DNA from: Humidesulfovibrio sp.
GTDB taxonomy: Bacteria > Desulfobacterota > Desulfovibrionia > Desulfovibrionales > Desulfovibrionaceae
Length of the DNA: 64,000 nucleotides
NCBI RefSeq assembly: GCF_031082295.1
Contig: NZ_JAVHLD010000002.1
Coordinates: forward strand, 172,042 to 236,041
Reading direction: 5' to 3'
The notes under the pieces are model-generated. The model made no database searches and was not told the origin of the DNA. It was given only the letters and a program-made list of their open reading frames with translations. Shown one piece after another: positions 8,018-21,871 of the stretch (within the stretch, counting starts at the first letter, position 1; every line of letters begins with the position of its first letter). The position numbers and the translations under genes were made by a program.

Positions 8018-9265
8018 CGGATTAATGATCTCTCCGGCGATGGCGCTGGCGGCGGCGACGGCCGGGCTGGACAGGTAGACTTCGCTCTGCAGGCTTCCCA
8101 TGCGGCCGCGGAAGTTGCGGTTGGTGGTGGCGATGCAGCGCTCGCCCCCGGCCAGAATGCCCATGTGGCCACCCAGGCAGGGGCCGCAGGTGGGCGGGCC
8201 GACCACGGCCCCGGCGTCCATGAAGATGCTGAACAGGCCCTCGTCCATGGCCTGGCGCCATATCTTCGGGGTGGCGGGCAGGACGATGAGGCGCACGTTC
8301 TTGTGCGCCTTGCGGCCCTTCAGGATGGCGGCGGCCTCGCGCAGGTCCTCGATGCGGCCGTTGGTGCAGGAGCCGATGACGGCCTGGTCGACGCGCAGGT
8401 TCGTCAGCTCGTCCACGGGGCGGACGTTGTCGGGCAGGTGCGGGCAGGCCACCTGGGGCGACATCCCGGTGACGGACAGGGACAGCTCCTGCTCGTACAC
8501 CGCGCCGGGATCGGCCTTGAGCGCCTTGTCGCCGGTACGGCCGTGGGCCGCGCAATAGGCCAAGGTCTTGGCATCCGCCGGGAACAGGCCGACCTTTCCG
8601 CCGGCCTCGATGGCCATGTTGGCCATGGTCATGCGGCCCTCGATGGAGAGGTTGTCGATGACAGGCCCGCCGAACTCCAGCGCCCGGTACAGCGCGCCGG
8701 ACACGCCGATGCGGCCGATCAAGTGCAGGATCAGGTCCTTGGCGCCGACGAAAGGCTCGAGCACGCCCTCGTACTCCACGCGGATGGTGGGCGGCACCTT
8801 GAACCAGGTCTCGCCCAGGGCCATGGCGCCGGCGATGTCCGTGGAGCCCATGCCCGTGGCGAAGGCGCCCAGGCCGCCGTAAGTGCAGGTGTGGCTGTCC
8901 GCGCCGACGACGATGTCGCGCGGGCCGACCAGGCCGAGTTCCGGCAACAGCGCGTGCTCCACGCCGCAGTCGCCGCCCTCGTAGTAATGCGTCACGTTCA
9001 TTTCACGGGCGAACTCGCGCACCACCTTGACCTGCTCGGCGGAGTCGATGTCCTTGTTGGGCGTGAAGTGGTCGCAGACCAACGCGACTTTATCCTTGTC
9101 AAAAACCCTGGTCGCGCCCATGCCCTTGAAGGACTTGATGGCCAACGGCGCGGTGATGTCGTTGGCGAGCACCAGGGACACGCGGCAGGTGACGATCTGC
9201 CCGGCGCGGGTGATTTCCTCATCCGTGTGCGCCTGCAGGATTTTTTCAGCTAAATTGTGGGACAT
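8006..9265 (-). CDS. leuC: 3-isopropylmalate dehydratase large subunit
   Basis: 419 residues, aconitase superfamily, of the shorter LeuC type. The [4Fe-4S] cysteines are visible in GSCTNGRIEDLREAA and in PTCGPCLGGHMGI. DSHTCTYGGLGAFATGMGSTD is the conserved aconitase-like active-site stretch. It acts with LeuD. The start overlaps the end of leuA by 16 bases and its ribosome-binding site GGGAGGAG lies inside leuA, so translation is probably coupled. Confidence 0.97.
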   Translation of the reverse strand: MSHNLAEKILQAHTDEEITRAGQIVTCRVSLVLANDITAPLAIKSFKGMGATRVFDKDKVALVCDHFTPNKDIDSAEQVKVVREFAREMNVTHYYEGGDCGVEHALLPELGLVGPRDIVVGADSHTCTYGGLGAFATGMGSTDIAGAMALGETWFKVPPTIRVEYEGVLEPFVGAKDLILHLIGRIGVSGALYRALEFGGPVIDNLSIEGRMTMANMAIEAGGKVGLFPADAKTLAYCAAHGRTGDKALKADPGAVYEQELSLSVTGMSPQVACPHLPDNVRPVDELTNLRVDQAVIGSCTNGRIEDLREAAAILKGRKAHKNVRLIVLPATPKIWRQAMDEGLFSIFMDAGAVVGPPTCGPCLGGHMGILAGGERCIATTNRNFRGRMGSLQSEVYLSSPAVAAASAIAGEIINPAKL

Positions 9266-10803
9266 TCGCTCTTCTCCTCCCTCATTTTCTCCAACCGATT
9301 GAGTGCGTTGATGAAGGCCATGGCGCTGGCGACGAGGATATCCTCGTTGGTGCCGCGGCCGACAGATCTCTTTCCCTCATGTTCGATGCGCACGGTCACA
9401 GTGGCCTGGGCGTCCGTGCCGCCGGTGACGGCGTTGATCTGAAAACGGTCCAGAGCGGGCGCGTAGCCCACCATGGACCCGATGCACTTGAACAGCGCGT
9501 CCACCGGCCCTTCGCCGAAGGAGGTGTGGCGGCGCACTTCGGCAACCTGCTCGCCGTCCAGCACCTCAAGCACCATGGCCGCGTGGGGCGGAACCCCGCC
9601 CGTGCCTGAGAACACGCTCATGTCCTTCAGACGGTACTTGTCGCGGCGGCGGTAGACCATCTCCAGCACAAGCGCTTCAACGTCCTCGTCGAACACGCGT
9701 TCCTTCTTGTCCGCAAGTTCCTTCACCGCGGAGAACACCACGGCGAGCTGTGCGTCGTCGAGAACGTAGCCGAGTTCCGTGAGCTTGGACTTGATGGCGT
9801 GGCTGCCCGAGTGCTTGCCGATGACCATTTCCGTGCCCTTGCGGCCAACGCTTTCGGGCGTCATTATCTCGTAGGTCAGCGGGTTTTTCAGCATGCCGTC
9901 CTGGTGGATGCCGGACTCGTGCGCGAAGGCGTTGGGGCCGACGATGGCCTTGTAAGGCGGGATGGGCTGGCCGATGATCTGCGAGAGGCGGCGGCAGGAC
10001 GGGTACAGCTGCTGCGTCTTGACGCCGCAATCGAGCTTGTAGAGTTCGTGGCGCGTGTGCAGCGCCATGACGAGCTCCTCAAGGGAGGCGTTGCCCGCGC
10101 GCTCGCCGATGCCGCAGAGCGTCACCTCGGCCTGGCGCGCTCCGGCCCGGATGGCCGAGAGGCTGTTGGCCACGGCCAAGCCAAGGTCGTTGTGGCAGTG
10201 TACGCTGAAGATGGCATCCTTGCTGTTGGGCACCTTCTTGATGAGGTAGGCGATGAGCTCGCCGTACTCAAAGGGCTGGGCGTAGCCCACAGTGTCGGGA
10301 ATGTTCACGGTGGTGGCACCGGCGCGGATGACCACTTCGCAGACCTGGGCCAGGAAGTCCCAGTCCGAGCGCGAGGCGTCCTCTGCGGAGAACTCGACGT
10401 TGGGGCACAGGCTCGCGGCGTGCCTGACGGCGGCCTCGGCCATTTCCAGCACCTGCTCGCGCGTTTTGCGCAGCTTGTGCGTCATGTGGATTTCGCTGGT
10501 GGCGAGGAAGGTGTGGATGCGCGGGTGGGCGGCGTCCTTGATGGCCTCCCAGCCACGGTCGATGTCCTTTGTCAGGGCGCGGCAGAGCGCCGCCACCTGG
10601 ATATGGCTGACGGAACGGGCAATGGCCTGCACGGCCTCGAAGTCGCCCTGGCTGGCGGCGGGAAAGCCCGCCTCGATGATGTCCACGCCCAGAGCCTCGA
10701 GCTGCCGCGCGAGGCTGACCTTCTCTTCCTGGTTCATGGTGGCGCCCGGCGATTGCTCACCGTCACGGAGAGTGGTGTCGAAAATATACACGCGATCTGA
10801 CAT
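9250..10803 (-). CDS. leuA: 2-isopropylmalate synthase
   Basis: 517 residues, full length with the catalytic TIM barrel followed by the C-terminal LeuA allosteric domain. Motifs: [15 protein letters not shown] at the N-terminus (metal-binding Asp) and [15 protein letters not shown] (metal histidines). It condenses acetyl-CoA with 2-ketoisovalerate, the first step of leucine synthesis, and is normally inhibited by leucine. A GAGGAGG ribosome-binding site precedes the ATG. It is the first structural gene of leuACDB and sits behind an attenuator (10936-11047). Confidence 0.97.
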
Positions 10804-10935
10804 GAATCCTCCTCACGTGGTTAGAAACCGTAACTTTTAAATGAATGACTGGCAACACGCACAGGGAAGCACCCGCGCACGAGTACGTCCCAGAGGGCAG
10901 CTCCCAGGGCCAAGGACTTTTATGAGAAGAAAGGG

Positions 10936-10993
10936 AAAAAAGAAAAAGCCCGACCTACGAGGAGACCCGCTGGGACTCGCGTAGGAATAGGGC
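10936..10993 (-). terminator. Leucine-operon attenuator (conditional terminator)
   Basis: On the minus strand, GCCC (10993-10990) and CCTACG pair with CGTAGG and GGGC (10951-10948), with further inner pairing of GAG-T-CCC to GGG-T-CTC. The 3' arm runs directly into TTTTTCTTTTTT (10947-10936). The 5' arm overlaps the two rare CTA leucine codons of the leader peptide gene, so a ribosome stalled there would block hairpin formation and let transcription reach leuA. A 14-base perfect palindrome GCGCTGATCAGCGC (10995-11008) lies just before it and can form a separate small hairpin. From 10935 down to the leuA start at 10803 I see only the ribosome-binding site. Confidence 0.7.
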
Positions 10994-11047
10994 GGCGCTG
11001 ATCAGCGCGGTGCGGATTGCGGTGTTATCGTCTGTCTTCATCATCAT
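10955..11047 (-). CDS. leuL: Leucine-operon leader peptide
   Basis: A 30-codon open frame, starting MMMKTDDNTAIRTALIS and ending in VSS just before TAG. The segment ALISAALFLRE holds three of its leucine codons, two of them CTA (CTA-TTC-CTA), a codon hardly used in the neighbouring GC-rich genes. The stop lies inside the 3' arm of a rho-independent terminator that precedes leuA. This is the arrangement of a translation-coupled attenuator: leucine shortage stalls the ribosome at CTA and prevents termination. Coding is inferred from position and codon choice; the ribosome-binding site (AAAAGAG) is weak. The first two ATG codons in the ATG-ATG-ATG-AAG start could be alternatives to the third. 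Confidence 0.65.
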   Translation of the reverse strand: MMMKTDDNTAIRTALISAALFLRESQRVSS

Positions 11048-11089: not shown

Positions 11090-11119
11090 ACTATGTCATG
11101 CTCAAGCACACCTTGTCCA
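11090..11119 (-). promoter_or_regulatory. Candidate promoter of the leu leader
   Basis: On the minus strand TGGACA (11119-11114), an 18-base spacer and CATAGT (11095-11090), about 45 bases before the leader peptide start. The match is moderate. Read-through from pssA is also possible, since I see no clear terminator after pssA. Confidence 0.35.
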
Positions 11120-11162: not shown

Positions 11163-11930
11163 TCAGCCTTGCTGGGTCTCCTTGGGCGTCACCAGCTTGG
11201 AACTGCGTGGCGAGAGGATGAACAAGGTATAGATGGGGCCAGAGATGAGGTAGCCCAGGAAGAACAGGAATCCGAGCATCTTGGGACGCGAGGCAACCAT
11301 GACGAAGAGCAGGATGACCGTGACCATGGAGCTGAAGGGGTGGGCCTTGATGAACCCGTACTCCTTGAACGAGGCGTAGCGCATGGTGCTGACCATGAGG
11401 AAGGACAGCACGTACACAAGCACCAGGCAGGCCGTGGGCAGCACGTCGACGATCCAGTTCTCTGGCAGATGCGGGGCGAAAAGGATAAGCGTGGCGAGCG
11501 TGCTGGCCTGAGCCGGGATGGGCAGCCCAACGAAGAACTTCTTGCTGGTCACGGCGGACTGCACGTTGAAGCGGGCAAGGCGCAGCGCACCGCAGGCGAT
11601 GAGCAGGAAGGACGCCATGAGCCCCAGAGTGCCGAAGGCATGCAACTGCCAGAGGTACATGGTCAAGGCAGGGGTTGCTCCGAAGGCCACAAGGTCGGCA
11701 AGGGAGTCGTACTGCACGCCGAATTCGCTGGTGGTGTTGGTTAGCCTGGCCACCTTGCCGTCCAGGCCGTCGAAGAGGCAGGACCCTAGCATGCACAGCG
11801 CCGAGTTCTCGTAAAGCCCCTCGATGGCCCAGATCATCCCCATGAACCCGAGGAAAAGGCTCGCGGTGGTGAAAAGATTCGGGAGGATGTACACGCCCTT
11901 GTGGCGCGGCAATGTCCTTTCCTTGACCAT
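11163..11930 (-). CDS. pssA: CDP-diacylglycerol-serine O-phosphatidyltransferase
   Basis: 255 residues with about eight membrane segments. The CDP-alcohol phosphatidyltransferase signature D-G-x2-A-R-x8-G-x3-D-x3-D is present as FDGLDGKVAR ... FGVQYDSLAD. It makes phosphatidylserine from CDP-diacylglycerol and serine at the inner membrane. The next enzyme, phosphatidylserine decarboxylase, is encoded immediately upstream (psd, 27 bases away), so the pair would make phosphatidylethanolamine from one transcript. Confidence 0.93.
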   Translation of the reverse strand: MVKERTLPRHKGVYILPNLFTTASLFLGFMGMIWAIEGLYENSALCMLGSCLFDGLDGKVARLTNTTSEFGVQYDSLADLVAFGATPALTMYLWQLHAFGTLGLMASFLLIACGALRLARFNVQSAVTSKKFFVGLPIPAQASTLATLILFAPHLPENWIVDVLPTACLVLVYVLSFLMVSTMRYASFKEYGFIKAHPFSSMVTVILLFVMVASRPKMLGFLFFLGYLISGPIYTLFILSPRSSKLVTPKETQQG

Positions 11931-19023: not shown

Positions 19024-20246
19024 AGAACATCGTGGTCCAGAAATTTGGTGGCACCTCCGTGCGCAATCTGGAGTGCATGAAGCAGGTGCTGAACAACGTT
19101 CGGCGTCCCCTGGCGGACGGCAGCAAGGTCATCGTGGTGCTCTCGGCCATGGCCGGGGAGACCAACCGACTGCTTGCGCTGGCAAAGGAGTGGTCGCCCG
19201 CTCCGGACCTGGCCGAGCTCGACAGCCTCGTCTCCACCGGCGAACAGATTTCCGTGGCGCTCTTCGCCATGATGGCCAAGGACGAGGGCATCAAATGCCG
19301 CTCCGTGCTCGGCTTTCAGGTGCCCATCATCAGCAACGACTCCTACGGCAAGGCCCGCATCGAGAGCATCGACAGCGAGAAGCTGGTGGCCATGCTTGAG
19401 GAATACGACGTGCTTGTGGTGGCGGGCTTCCAGGGCGTGGACGCCCACGACCGCATCACCACCCTCGGGCGGGGCGGGTCTGACACCTCCGCCGTGGCCG
19501 TGGCCGCGGCCCTCAAGGCCGAAGTGTGCGAAATCTACACCGACGTTCCGGGCGTGTTCACCACCGACCCGAACATGTGCGCCGAGGCTCGCAAGCTCGA
19601 CCGCATCTCCTACGACGAGATGCTCGAGATGGCCAGCATGGGAGCCAAGGTGCTCCAGATCCGTTCGGTTGAGTTCGCCAAGAAATACAACGTCATCGTG
19701 CATGTGCGCTCGACCTTCAGCGACGAGCCCGGCACCTTAGTCACTCAGGAGGATGCAAACATGGAAGCAGTCCAGGTCGCCGGTGTCGCCTACGACAAGG
19801 ACCAGGCCCAGGTCACCCTCGTCGGCGTGCTCGACGAGCCCGGCGTCTGCGCCTCGATCTTCACGCCCATCGCCGAGAGAAAGATCCTGGTCGACATGAT
19901 CGTGCAGAACCCAAGCCGCGAAGGCCGCACCGACATCACCTTCACCGTGCCCAGGGCCGACCTGGACGCCACCCTGAAACTGATGGATGGCCTGAAGCCT
20001 GAAATCGGCTTCAAGGCGCTGCTGTCCGACAACAGCGTCAGCAAGGTCTCGGTCATCGGCGTGGGCATGCGCAACCATTCCGGCGTGGCGGCCCAGGCCT
20101 TCCGCGCCCTGCGCGACGAGAACATCAATATCCTCATGATCAGCACGTCGGAGATCAAGCTCACATGCCTCATCGAGGACAAGTACACGGAACTTGCGGT
20201 GCGCACCCTGCACCAGACCTTTCTCGGACAATACCAGGTAGGATGA
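19020..20246 (+). CDS. lysC: Aspartate kinase
   Basis: 408 residues. The start MKNIVVQKFGGTSV is the family N-terminus; an upstream in-frame ATG at 18999 lies inside tsaE and is rejected. The kinase domain (about 1-250) has TLGRGGSDTSAVAVAAAL. Two C-terminal ACT domains (about 265-405) are the site of feedback control by lysine or threonine. It phosphorylates aspartate, the first step to lysine, methionine and threonine. The ATGA overlap at both ends (tsaE before, cimA after) indicates coupled translation. Confidence 0.96.
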   Translation: MKNIVVQKFGGTSVRNLECMKQVLNNVRRPLADGSKVIVVLSAMAGETNRLLALAKEWSPAPDLAELDSLVSTGEQISVALFAMMAKDEGIKCRSVLGFQVPIISNDSYGKARIESIDSEKLVAMLEEYDVLVVAGFQGVDAHDRITTLGRGGSDTSAVAVAAALKAEVCEIYTDVPGVFTTDPNMCAEARKLDRISYDEMLEMASMGAKVLQIRSVEFAKKYNVIVHVRSTFSDEPGTLVTQEDANMEAVQVAGVAYDKDQAQVTLVGVLDEPGVCASIFTPIAERKILVDMIVQNPSREGRTDITFTVPRADLDATLKLMDGLKPEIGFKALLSDNSVSKVSVIGVGMRNHSGVAAQAFRALRDENINILMISTSEIKLTCLIEDKYTELAVRTLHQTFLGQYQVG

Positions 20247-21871
20247 CCATGCGCCAGGCCAGCATCTACGATACGACCCTCAGGGACGGCACACAGGCGG
20301 AAGAGCTGAACCTCACAACAGAGGACAAGATCCGCATAGCCTGCAAGCTCGATGAACTGGGGATCAACTACATTGAGGGCGGCTGGCCTGGCTCGAATCC
20401 CACGGACAAGCAGTTCTTCAAGGAAATCAAGAATTACAGCTTGAAGAACGCCGTGGTCGCGGCTTTCGGCAGCACACACAACAACAAGACCACGCCTGAG
20501 AACGACCCGAACCTCAAGGCCATTCTTGATTCCGGCGTGACCGTGGCCACCATCTTCGGCAAGACGTGGGACTTCCACGTGACCCACGCCCTGCGCGTGA
20601 CGCTTCCGCGCAACCTGGAGCTCATCAAAGGCAGCCTGGGAGCCCTGCGCGGAAACATGCGCGAGCTGTTCTTCGACGCCGAGCACTTCTTCGACGGCTT
20701 CAAGGCCAACCCGGAGTATGCCCTGGCGGCCCTCAAGACCGCGCATGAGTCCGGGGCCGACGTGCTCGTCCTGTGCGACACCAACGGCGGCACCATGACC
20801 CATGAGCTGGGCCCCATCATCAGCAGGGTCCAGCAGGAACTGCCGGGAGCGGCGCTGGGCATCCACACCCACAACGACGCCGAGCTGGCCGTGGCCAACT
20901 CGATCGAGGCGGTGCGCCTGGGCGCGGTGCAGGTGCAGGGCACGATGAACGGCTACGGCGAGCGCTGCGGCAACGCCAACCTCTGCTCCATCATCCCGAG
21001 CCTGGAACTCAAGATGGGCGTCTCCTGCATCGGCAAGGAGAACCTCGCAAAGCTCACCATGGTGGCCCACTACGTGGCCGAGACCGTGAACTTGCGGCCC
21101 TTCCCCCACCAGCCTTACGTGGGCGGATCGGCCTTTGCGCACAAGGCCGGGGTTCACGTGAGCGCTGTGGTGAAGAACCCCGAAACCTACGAGCACATCC
21201 GGCCCGAACTGGTGGGCAACGCCAACCGCGTCCTGCTCTCCGACCTGGCCGGGCGCAGCAACATCCTGTTCAAGGCCAAGCAGTACGGCTACGACCTGGA
21301 CAAGGACGATCCGGCGGTCATGGACCTGCTGGCCGAGCTCAAGCGCCGCGAGACCATGGGCTACGAATACTCCGTGGCCGAGGCCAGCTACGAGATCCTG
21401 TTCTTCCGCATGATGGGCTGGAGCAAGCGCTACTTTCAGCTGGTGAACTACCGCGTGCTCGACGCCGTGAACGAGGAGAAGGAGCCCTTCTCCGAGGCGA
21501 CGGTGATGCTCCAGGTGCGCGGGGAAGTCGCCCACACGGCTGCCACGGGACGCGGCCCGGTGAACGCGCTGGACGTGGCCTTGCGCCGTGCGCTCGAGCC
21601 CTCCTACCCCACCCTGTCGCAGATGCGCCTGCTTGACTTCAAGGTGCGCGTCATGAGCATCGCCAACAAGGACGGCGGCGGCACCGCCTCCTTCGTGCGC
21701 GTGCTCATCGAGTCCGGCGACAAGCAGGACCGCTGGACGACGGTCGGCGTCTCGCACAACATCATCGAGGCAAGCTGGCAGGCGCTTGTCGATTCCATCA
21801 ACTACAAGCTCTTCAAGGACGACCCGCAGAAGTGGCCCCAGCCCGGCGGGAAGCACGACAAGACAAAGTAG
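20243..21871 (+). CDS. cimA: (R)-citramalate synthase
   Basis: 542 residues. It starts within the lysC stop (ATGA); a second ATG lies two codons later. The HMGL-like barrel begins YDTTLRDGTQAEELNLT, where the D-G-T-Q-A variant separates citramalate synthases from LeuA (DGEQSPG). The metal motif HTHNDAELAVANS and a C-terminal LeuA-type regulatory domain are present. It condenses pyruvate and acetyl-CoA to citramalate, giving 2-ketobutyrate for isoleucine via LeuCD and LeuB. Homocitrate synthase or LeuA activity is less likely on this N-terminal signature. Confidence 0.9.
   Translation: MTMRQASIYDTTLRDGTQAEELNLTTEDKIRIACKLDELGINYIEGGWPGSNPTDKQFFKEIKNYSLKNAVVAAFGSTHNNKTTPENDPNLKAILDSGVTVATIFGKTWDFHVTHALRVTLPRNLELIKGSLGALRGNMRELFFDAEHFFDGFKANPEYALAALKTAHESGADVLVLCDTNGGTMTHELGPIISRVQQELPGAALGIHTHNDAELAVANSIEAVRLGAVQVQGTMNGYGERCGNANLCSIIPSLELKMGVSCIGKENLAKLTMVAHYVAETVNLRPFPHQPYVGGSAFAHKAGVHVSAVVKNPETYEHIRPELVGNANRVLLSDLAGRSNILFKAKQYGYDLDKDDPAVMDLLAELKRRETMGYEYSVAEASYEILFFRMMGWSKRYFQLVNYRVLDAVNEEKEPFSEATVMLQVRGEVAHTAATGRGPVNALDVALRRALEPSYPTLSQMRLLDFKVRVMSIANKDGGGTASFVRVLIESGDKQDRWTTVGVSHNIIEASWQALVDSINYKLFKDDPQKWPQPGGKHDKTK

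Follow-up and report, generated by a model that had tools for sequence, protein, structure and literature searches.

A probable leucine attenuator leader upstream of leuA in Humidesulfovibrio and its counterpart in the C-terminal tail of pssA

Introduction

Upstream of leuA in the 64,000-nucleotide stretch of Humidesulfovibrio DNA analyzed here (hereafter, the window), a 30-codon open reading frame carries two CTA leucine codons and ends within an intrinsic terminator. Does this ORF encode the leader peptide of a leucine attenuator, as an earlier note on the sequence proposed, and is it an isolated design or one form of a more widely distributed arrangement? Comparison of leuA loci across the order leads us to consider it likely that the ORF encodes the leader peptide through which a leucine-responsive attenuator controls the leu operon, and that this leader is normally supplied by roughly the final 20 codons of the upstream gene, pssA.

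The leader ORF and its terminator

10803-6337, minus strand: run leuA-leuC-leuD-leuB, with leuA as its first gene
9250..10803, minus strand: leuA, 2-isopropylmalate synthase (ORF and translation)
11163..11930, minus strand: pssA, phosphatidylserine synthase-like, upstream of leuA; C-terminus SSKLVTPKETQQG, without a CTA tail
10955..11047, minus strand: leader ORF of 30 codons; protein MMMKTDDNTAIRTALISAALFLRESQRVSS, then stop
10988..10990, minus strand: first control codon CTA (codon 20); only the C is paired, the TA lying in an internal loop
10982..10984, minus strand: second control codon CTA (codon 22); whole codon in the stem, paired with CGUAGG
10948..10993, minus strand: intrinsic terminator T0, stem-loop GCCC-UAUU-CCUACG-C-GAG-U-CCC-AGC-GGG-U-CUC-CU-CGUAGG-UC-GGGC
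10936..10947, minus strand: U-tract of T0, T5-C-T6, TTTTTCTTTTTT (from the sequence)
10995..11008, minus strand: small hairpin GCGCT-GATC-AGCGC directly before T0 (from the fold)

We take the two flanking genes to be leuA and pssA from recognition of their sequences, with no family search behind either name. They are separated by 359 nt in the window; the leader ORF lies inside this gap and ends 151 nt before the start of leuA. Its three Leu codons are CTG, CTA, and CTA, while CTA accounts for 9 of the 1999 Leu codons in the 39 predicted ORFs of the window. The binomial P for two of the three Leu codons being CTA is 6e-5, a value calculated post hoc. Ten long tRNA genes were examined in the genome; five are Leu tRNAs, and tRNA-Leu(UAG) is represented by one gene. 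A second LeuA-family protein, encoded about 10 kb from leuA (window 20165-21871, plus strand), is 30% identical to LeuA across residues 5-502 and is perhaps citramalate or homocitrate synthase-like.

The 63-nt piece containing T0 folds at -24.1 kcal/mol (z -3.28), with none of 200 shuffles as good, although a plain terminator scan (simple stem, loop of 3-8) missed it. The last 13 codons of the leader form part of T0, and the leader stop codon, TAG, falls in its 3' arm. The ORF, the sequence, and the fold thus bear out the anatomy given in the earlier note (30 codons, two of them CTA, T5-C-T6, and leuA next), as the codon counts bear out the rarity of CTA. Within the 5' arm of the terminator, the second CTA codon is fully paired, and the first lies mostly in an internal loop with its C alone paired.

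That note had also proposed an alignment of the regions upstream of leuA in related genomes. A homologous small ORF ending in (L)RESQ is present upstream of leuA in 6 of the 12 species of the window's genus (LRLSQ in one). The second CTA is conserved in all six of these standalone leaders; the first is retained unaltered in the window and L086, is represented by a different CTA nearby in L091, and is absent from some relatives. This conserved frame, together with the in-frame excess of CTA described below, points to a short leader ORF with cognate control codons. T0 and a U-rich tract recur in five of the six separate-leader species (the window, L085, L086, L090, and L092), placing an intrinsic terminator between the leader and the cognate pathway gene in the window and four sister species. 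In an alignment of these five sequences, 95% of cells are paired given the pairs, as compared with at most 52% when the alignment is slid; covariation is weak, with one pair changed on both sides and 107/500 shuffles scoring as high. No T0-like hairpin with a U-tract was seen in the alignment of the genus's six fused species, in which the CTA codons are part of pssA. The small hairpin directly before T0, a possible pause hairpin, appears by eye to be kept in L085, and in L086 takes the form ACGCT-GCAA-AGCGT.

Proposed mechanism and surrounding RNA structure

From this arrangement we infer the following leucine response. When charged tRNA-Leu(UAG), the dedicated CUA reader, is scarce, the ribosome would stall at the CTA codons; with CUA in the ribosomal decoding site, the outer half of the 5' arm of T0 would be covered, such that T0 could not close next to the U-tract, and polymerase would continue into leuA. 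When leucine is ample, the ribosome would finish and release at the in-stem stop, and T0 would form during the polymerase pause on the 12-nt U-tract. Because the stop codon lies inside the stem, the replete state would need prompt release while polymerase lingers on the U-tract, and this step is the weak point of the model. The earlier suggestion that a stalled ribosome blocks the terminator directly agrees with the overlap of the CTA codons and T0; however, the same in-stem stop codon means that translating ribosomes could also cover T0 and block it.

10964..10976, minus strand: 5' arm of long-range helix P1, GTCCCAG and the following leader codons (helix analysis)
10887..10899, minus strand: 3' arm of P1, ...CTGGGAC, downstream of T0 (helix analysis)
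10859..10878, minus strand: decayed remnant of hairpin T1 (alignment)

The earlier note envisaged a two-state switch without an antiterminator; in its minimal form, the stalled ribosome alone would block the terminator and no other RNA structure would be involved. Consistent with this, a single-sequence fold from the leader to the loop side of T0 gave no upstream partner that pairs well with the 5' arm of T0. A longer-range helix is nonetheless present in all 12 species of the genus: in P1, the codons just after CTA pair with a segment 60-110 nt downstream, across an intervening stretch whose length differs greatly among the species. In P1, 88.8% of 152 cells are paired, versus at most 60.6% when slid, and 8 cells are changed on both sides, a count matched by 1/500 shuffles. 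The 3' arm of P1 is transcribed after the U-tract, so P1 cannot be the antiterminator of T0; it may instead govern T1, a GCGGGC/GCCCGC hairpin found in most species of the genus. T1 is followed by a good U-tract in L090 and L092, and the window retains a decayed remnant of it. The lack of an upstream partner and the late synthesis of the P1 3' arm are what a two-state switch would predict, but the retention of P1 in 12/12 species and of T1 in most argues that more structure has been selected than two states need. We therefore regard the minimal switch as possible but doubtful.

A duplex test (at most 2/100 shuffles as good) was passed at 26/150 loci: 10/12 in the window's genus, 13/16 in genus g8, and 3/122 elsewhere. 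With so few loci passing beyond these two genera, the idea of an order-wide long-range leader helix was dropped. The 15-pair helix of g8 has no change on both sides, so that the support within that genus is one of complementarity.

In the pyrBI attenuator of E. coli, leader translation enters the terminator hairpin and the ribosome prevents termination, the signal being UTP, sensed via polymerase pausing. In the window the leader ORF likewise extends into its terminator, and its stop is located in the 3' arm of T0. By analogy, what matters might be a ribosome keeping up with polymerase over the terminator, whatever slows the polymerase, and not leucine as such. However, the selection for a rare Leu codon and the position of the leader before leuA point to leucine rather than UTP, and we consider a pyrBI-like switch improbable.

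CTA codons in the tail of pssA across the order

Searches for leuA matched 178 of the 199 genomes sampled from the family, 194 of 199 from the order, and 101 of 118 from the phylum; stretches upstream of the matched leuA genes were fetched, and named public loci were added. Dropped before the counts were L194 and L216 (contig ends), L014 (pssA frame unclear), L015 (outside the order), L245 and the named loci L011, L012, L013, and L036 (upstream pssA not found), and L005 (the same record as L087). The named loci L006-L010 and L020 may duplicate genomes already in the sample.

In the first family sample, pssA lies directly upstream of leuA at 110/129 loci, and of the 438 Leu codons within the final 20 positions of pssA, 243 are CTA, versus 25/3500 in the rest of the gene. 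With the order added, CTA occurs in the last 20 codons at 125/146 loci and in 31/37 genera (311/585 Leu codons, versus 43/4644 in the gene body); the named Desulfomicrobium, Desulfonatronovibrio, and Desulfovibrio loci carry the CTA tail too, on which basis the order is taken to be Desulfovibrionales. Across the 146 loci, the next most enriched codon in the tail reaches 5.4-fold. As a control, the last 20 codons of leuA itself contain no CTA among 72 Leu codons (29 loci). Four loci of genus g48 in family f5 (L214, L215, L217, and L244) retain the CTA tail despite a pssA-leuA gap of 295-487 nt.

Many families also share a hairpin that extends from a CTA codon to the stop (H1, CTACGAGAG...CTCTCGTAA). 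In many genera H1 is stabler than synonymous recodings (41/118 loci at p <= 0.05), and in L224 it has twelve perfect pairs; the synonymous-recoding test found no excess stability in genera g5, g7, g8, g22, g38, and g43. On this basis one might read the conserved block as a DNA operator, or as an RNA conserved for its structure only, and CTA as a by-product. That origin for CTA was rejected because the excess is confined to the reading frame: the pssA tails hold 311 CTA triplets in frame versus 10 and 21 out of frame, whereas CTA in the gene body is commonest out of frame (30 in frame versus 64 and 347). Furthermore, codons 14-20 before the pssA stop, mostly upstream of H1, are CTA-rich as well (107/235 Leu codons), and the separate leaders of other genera hold in-frame CTA in differing sequence contexts. 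An operator or structural element as the sole explanation is thus very improbable.

Fused and separate leaders

11090..11119, minus strand: promoter-like site of the leader, TGGACA-18-CATAGT, with TG before the second hexamer; one found, against a mean of 0.4 in shuffles

Among the 146 loci, 21 lack CTA in the pssA tail, and 10 of these have a separate small CTA-bearing ORF: five in the window's genus (the window, G083, G029, G161, and G110), three in g14, one in g23, and one in g37. No separate leader was found at the other 11 (three in g51; two each in g10, g42, and the named loci; one each in g39 and g55), six of which lay outside the scan. The scan for CTA leaders was made on family loci only, namely 19 without pssA, 15 without tail CTA, and 10 of genus g22. 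A lone CTA sufficed for a small ORF to be listed, so rows with a single CTA may be chance.

The window's genus divides evenly, with six species carrying CTA in the pssA tail and six carrying a separate leader (G134 counted). In a leuA tree these states interleave, and well-supported branches force at least three changes between them. The sequences themselves reflect the relationship: the leader C-terminus in the window, LFLRESQRVSS, resembles the PssA tail of sister species, LLRESQKEPS, each running up to the stop, and removal of the 207-210 nt between AAGCT in pssA and CCTACG in the leader yields the fused junction AAGCTCCTACG, with L085 one base off. These data indicate that the leader of the window is probably a detached form of the leader that otherwise constitutes the C-terminal tail of pssA; the change may have run in either direction. 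A promoter-like arrangement similar to that of the window is visible by eye in the other standalone species; that the separate species have both this and T0 in common suggests common descent of the separate state, followed by re-fusion or exchange between species. The outgroups are fused, which suggests that fusion is the older state.

Could the window simply contain an ordinary terminator behind pssA and a chance ORF? Terminators between pssA and leuA are unremarkable, and loci of g42 and g39 have plain, strong ones. A chance ORF was nevertheless rejected, as the ORF is present in six species with its frame and its CTA codon preserved; the promoter-like site upstream of the leader and the replacement of pssA tail codons by the leader also speak against it, and we consider this explanation highly improbable. 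The description of the ORF as a leucine attenuator leader very probably stands, given the codon selection, the conservation, the adjacency to leuA, and the overlap with T0; the picture of an isolated design does not, since the leader appears to be a detached pssA tail.

Other genera show further arrangements. In part of genus g22 (L137, L139, L141, L143, L146, and L148), the CTA tail is accompanied by a second CTA-rich ORF nearer leuA, ending in GPLLCxLxxN (GPLLGNLFAN in L141), which gives two candidate sensors in series. In g14 (L101, L102, and L104), a separate CTA leader lies about 220 nt upstream of leuA, with its CTA codons and stop within a CCCCCTAT/ATAGGGGGG hairpin; in L104 its start appears to follow a TTGACA-17-TAGCTT-like promoter by a few bases, and the g14 leader mRNA may be nearly leaderless.

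pssA apart from leuA

At 19 of the 129 family loci there is no pssA upstream of leuA, and 16 of these 19 genomes have pssA elsewhere. In these 16 genomes, pssA genes away from leuA have CTA at 0/25 tail Leu codons; the L250 gene is cut by a contig end, and its tail is not the true C-terminus. G134, of the window's genus, illustrates both parts: its pssA, about 10 kb off, ends in SSKLQRDSQKGPQAS without CTA, whereas a separate ORF before leuA ends in LASLRESQTGHL with CTA. Distant pssA genes have lost, or never had, the CTA codons, and the CTA tail depends on adjacency to leuA. Outside the order, pssA adjoins leuA in 21/40 sampled genomes, and in these CTA accounts for 2/41 tail Leu codons versus 29/682 in the body. 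The tail bias is thus absent there despite the adjacency, indicating that the gene order is older and that the sensor belongs to this order.

A role for the codons in PssA itself, for example a programmed pause aiding membrane insertion or release with leucine irrelevant, would fit their location within the pssA C-terminus at 125/146 loci, but was rejected on the near absence of CTA from detached and out-of-order pssA tails and, with separate leaders carrying CTA where pssA has none, is scarcely credible. The in-frame excess shows that CTA has been selected as codons; these are also conserved and tied to leuA adjacency.

We therefore return to the leucine attenuator. Across the order, the last ~20 codons of pssA probably act as a leucine sensor, such that ribosomes finishing PssA would decide entry into the leu operon, with fused and free leaders interconverting repeatedly within one genus. 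Sensing would ordinarily be done by ribosomes ending the upstream lipid gene, and in the lineage of the window by those translating a dedicated ORF with its own promoter-like site.

Comparison with known systems

The leuL attenuator of E. coli and Salmonella likewise has a CUA-bearing leader peptide before leuA, followed by an intrinsic terminator. Unlike leuL, the window has its control codons and stop within the terminator stem and yielded no upstream antiterminator, and most relatives have the end of PssA as their leader. A precedent for a regulatory terminator that overlaps the 3' end of an upstream gene of unrelated function is the ampC attenuator of E. coli, located at the end of frdD; in that case, unlike the present one, there is no amino-acid sensor made from the upstream gene's own codons. 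Leader peptides are usually regarded as stand-alone mini-genes that can be dispensed with. The probable sensor described here mostly coincides with the functional end of a gene for a house-keeping enzyme, placing one codon stretch under two selections.

The Salmonella leu leader has CUA codons, and CUA is established as a sensitive leu control codon in enterics (PMC1183508). The actinobacterial LEU element is a leuA-leader ORF with Leu codons in a structured RNA with a pseudoknot; candidate leaders are without obvious terminators, and the run of Leu codons pairs with the leuA Shine-Dalgarno box (PMC1262725). Both systems place an ORF containing Leu codons within a structured RNA ahead of leuA, but they differ in the partners mapped: in the present system, these are the stop region of the leader itself (H1, T0) and the GGGAC segment (P1).

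A search with Rfam returned two tRNAs only in the window at the gathering score, and no match at E <= 1 for 14 related loci. Open-licence literature, searched by title and abstract, yielded nothing on a leuA leader in this order or on pssA as a leader; subscription papers lay outside its scope, and the result is weak evidence of novelty. While attenuation of this type is known, a leader that is formed by the C-terminal codons of an unrelated house-keeping gene, is distributed order-wide, and interconverts with free leaders is, to our knowledge, new. The order-wide context makes the leader of the window much more interesting than first described. If the reading is true, a protein C-terminus can give rise to a leader peptide gene or take one up again, and the genus of the window, which holds fused and separate states together, offers a system for studying the origin of leader peptides. 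As a caution, regulatory codons can hide within annotated genes, beyond the reach of searches for small leader ORFs.

Promoters and termination in other lineages

10827..10855, minus strand: promoter-like site near leuA, TTGCCA-17-TACGGT, downstream of T0; 10/50 shuffles as good

The promoter-like site near leuA occupies the same place, with the same 17-nt spacing, in 9/12 species of the genus, and is found in some others too. Lying between the attenuator and leuA, such a site would bypass the attenuator, and it may add basal expression outside attenuator control.

Intrinsic terminators were detected at 56/151 loci in a simple scan without shuffle control. Most tail-type loci have no T0-like terminator after the CTA codons, T0 itself being confined to the standalone species; the sensing codons would thus be common to the order, with the terminating part apparently varying by lineage. 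The first 20 nt past the leader stop are rich in C (0.39) and poor in G (0.17; means over 32 groups, comprising 31 genera and the pooled named loci), which makes Rho-dependent termination a candidate where an intrinsic terminator is absent.

At L193 and L211 (g42) and L212 (g39), the pssA tail is without CTA and a strong, plain terminator stands between pssA and leuA, as if a regulated connection had been severed. The g5 loci (e.g., L109:3061-3213, minus strand) have a conserved GGTACGTCGTACTG-type hairpin after the CTA tail, and some g5 species have a strong terminator, GTCGCCACGCAC..GTGCGTTGGCGA-TTTTTT, in that position; the g5 switch seems to be built differently from that of the window.
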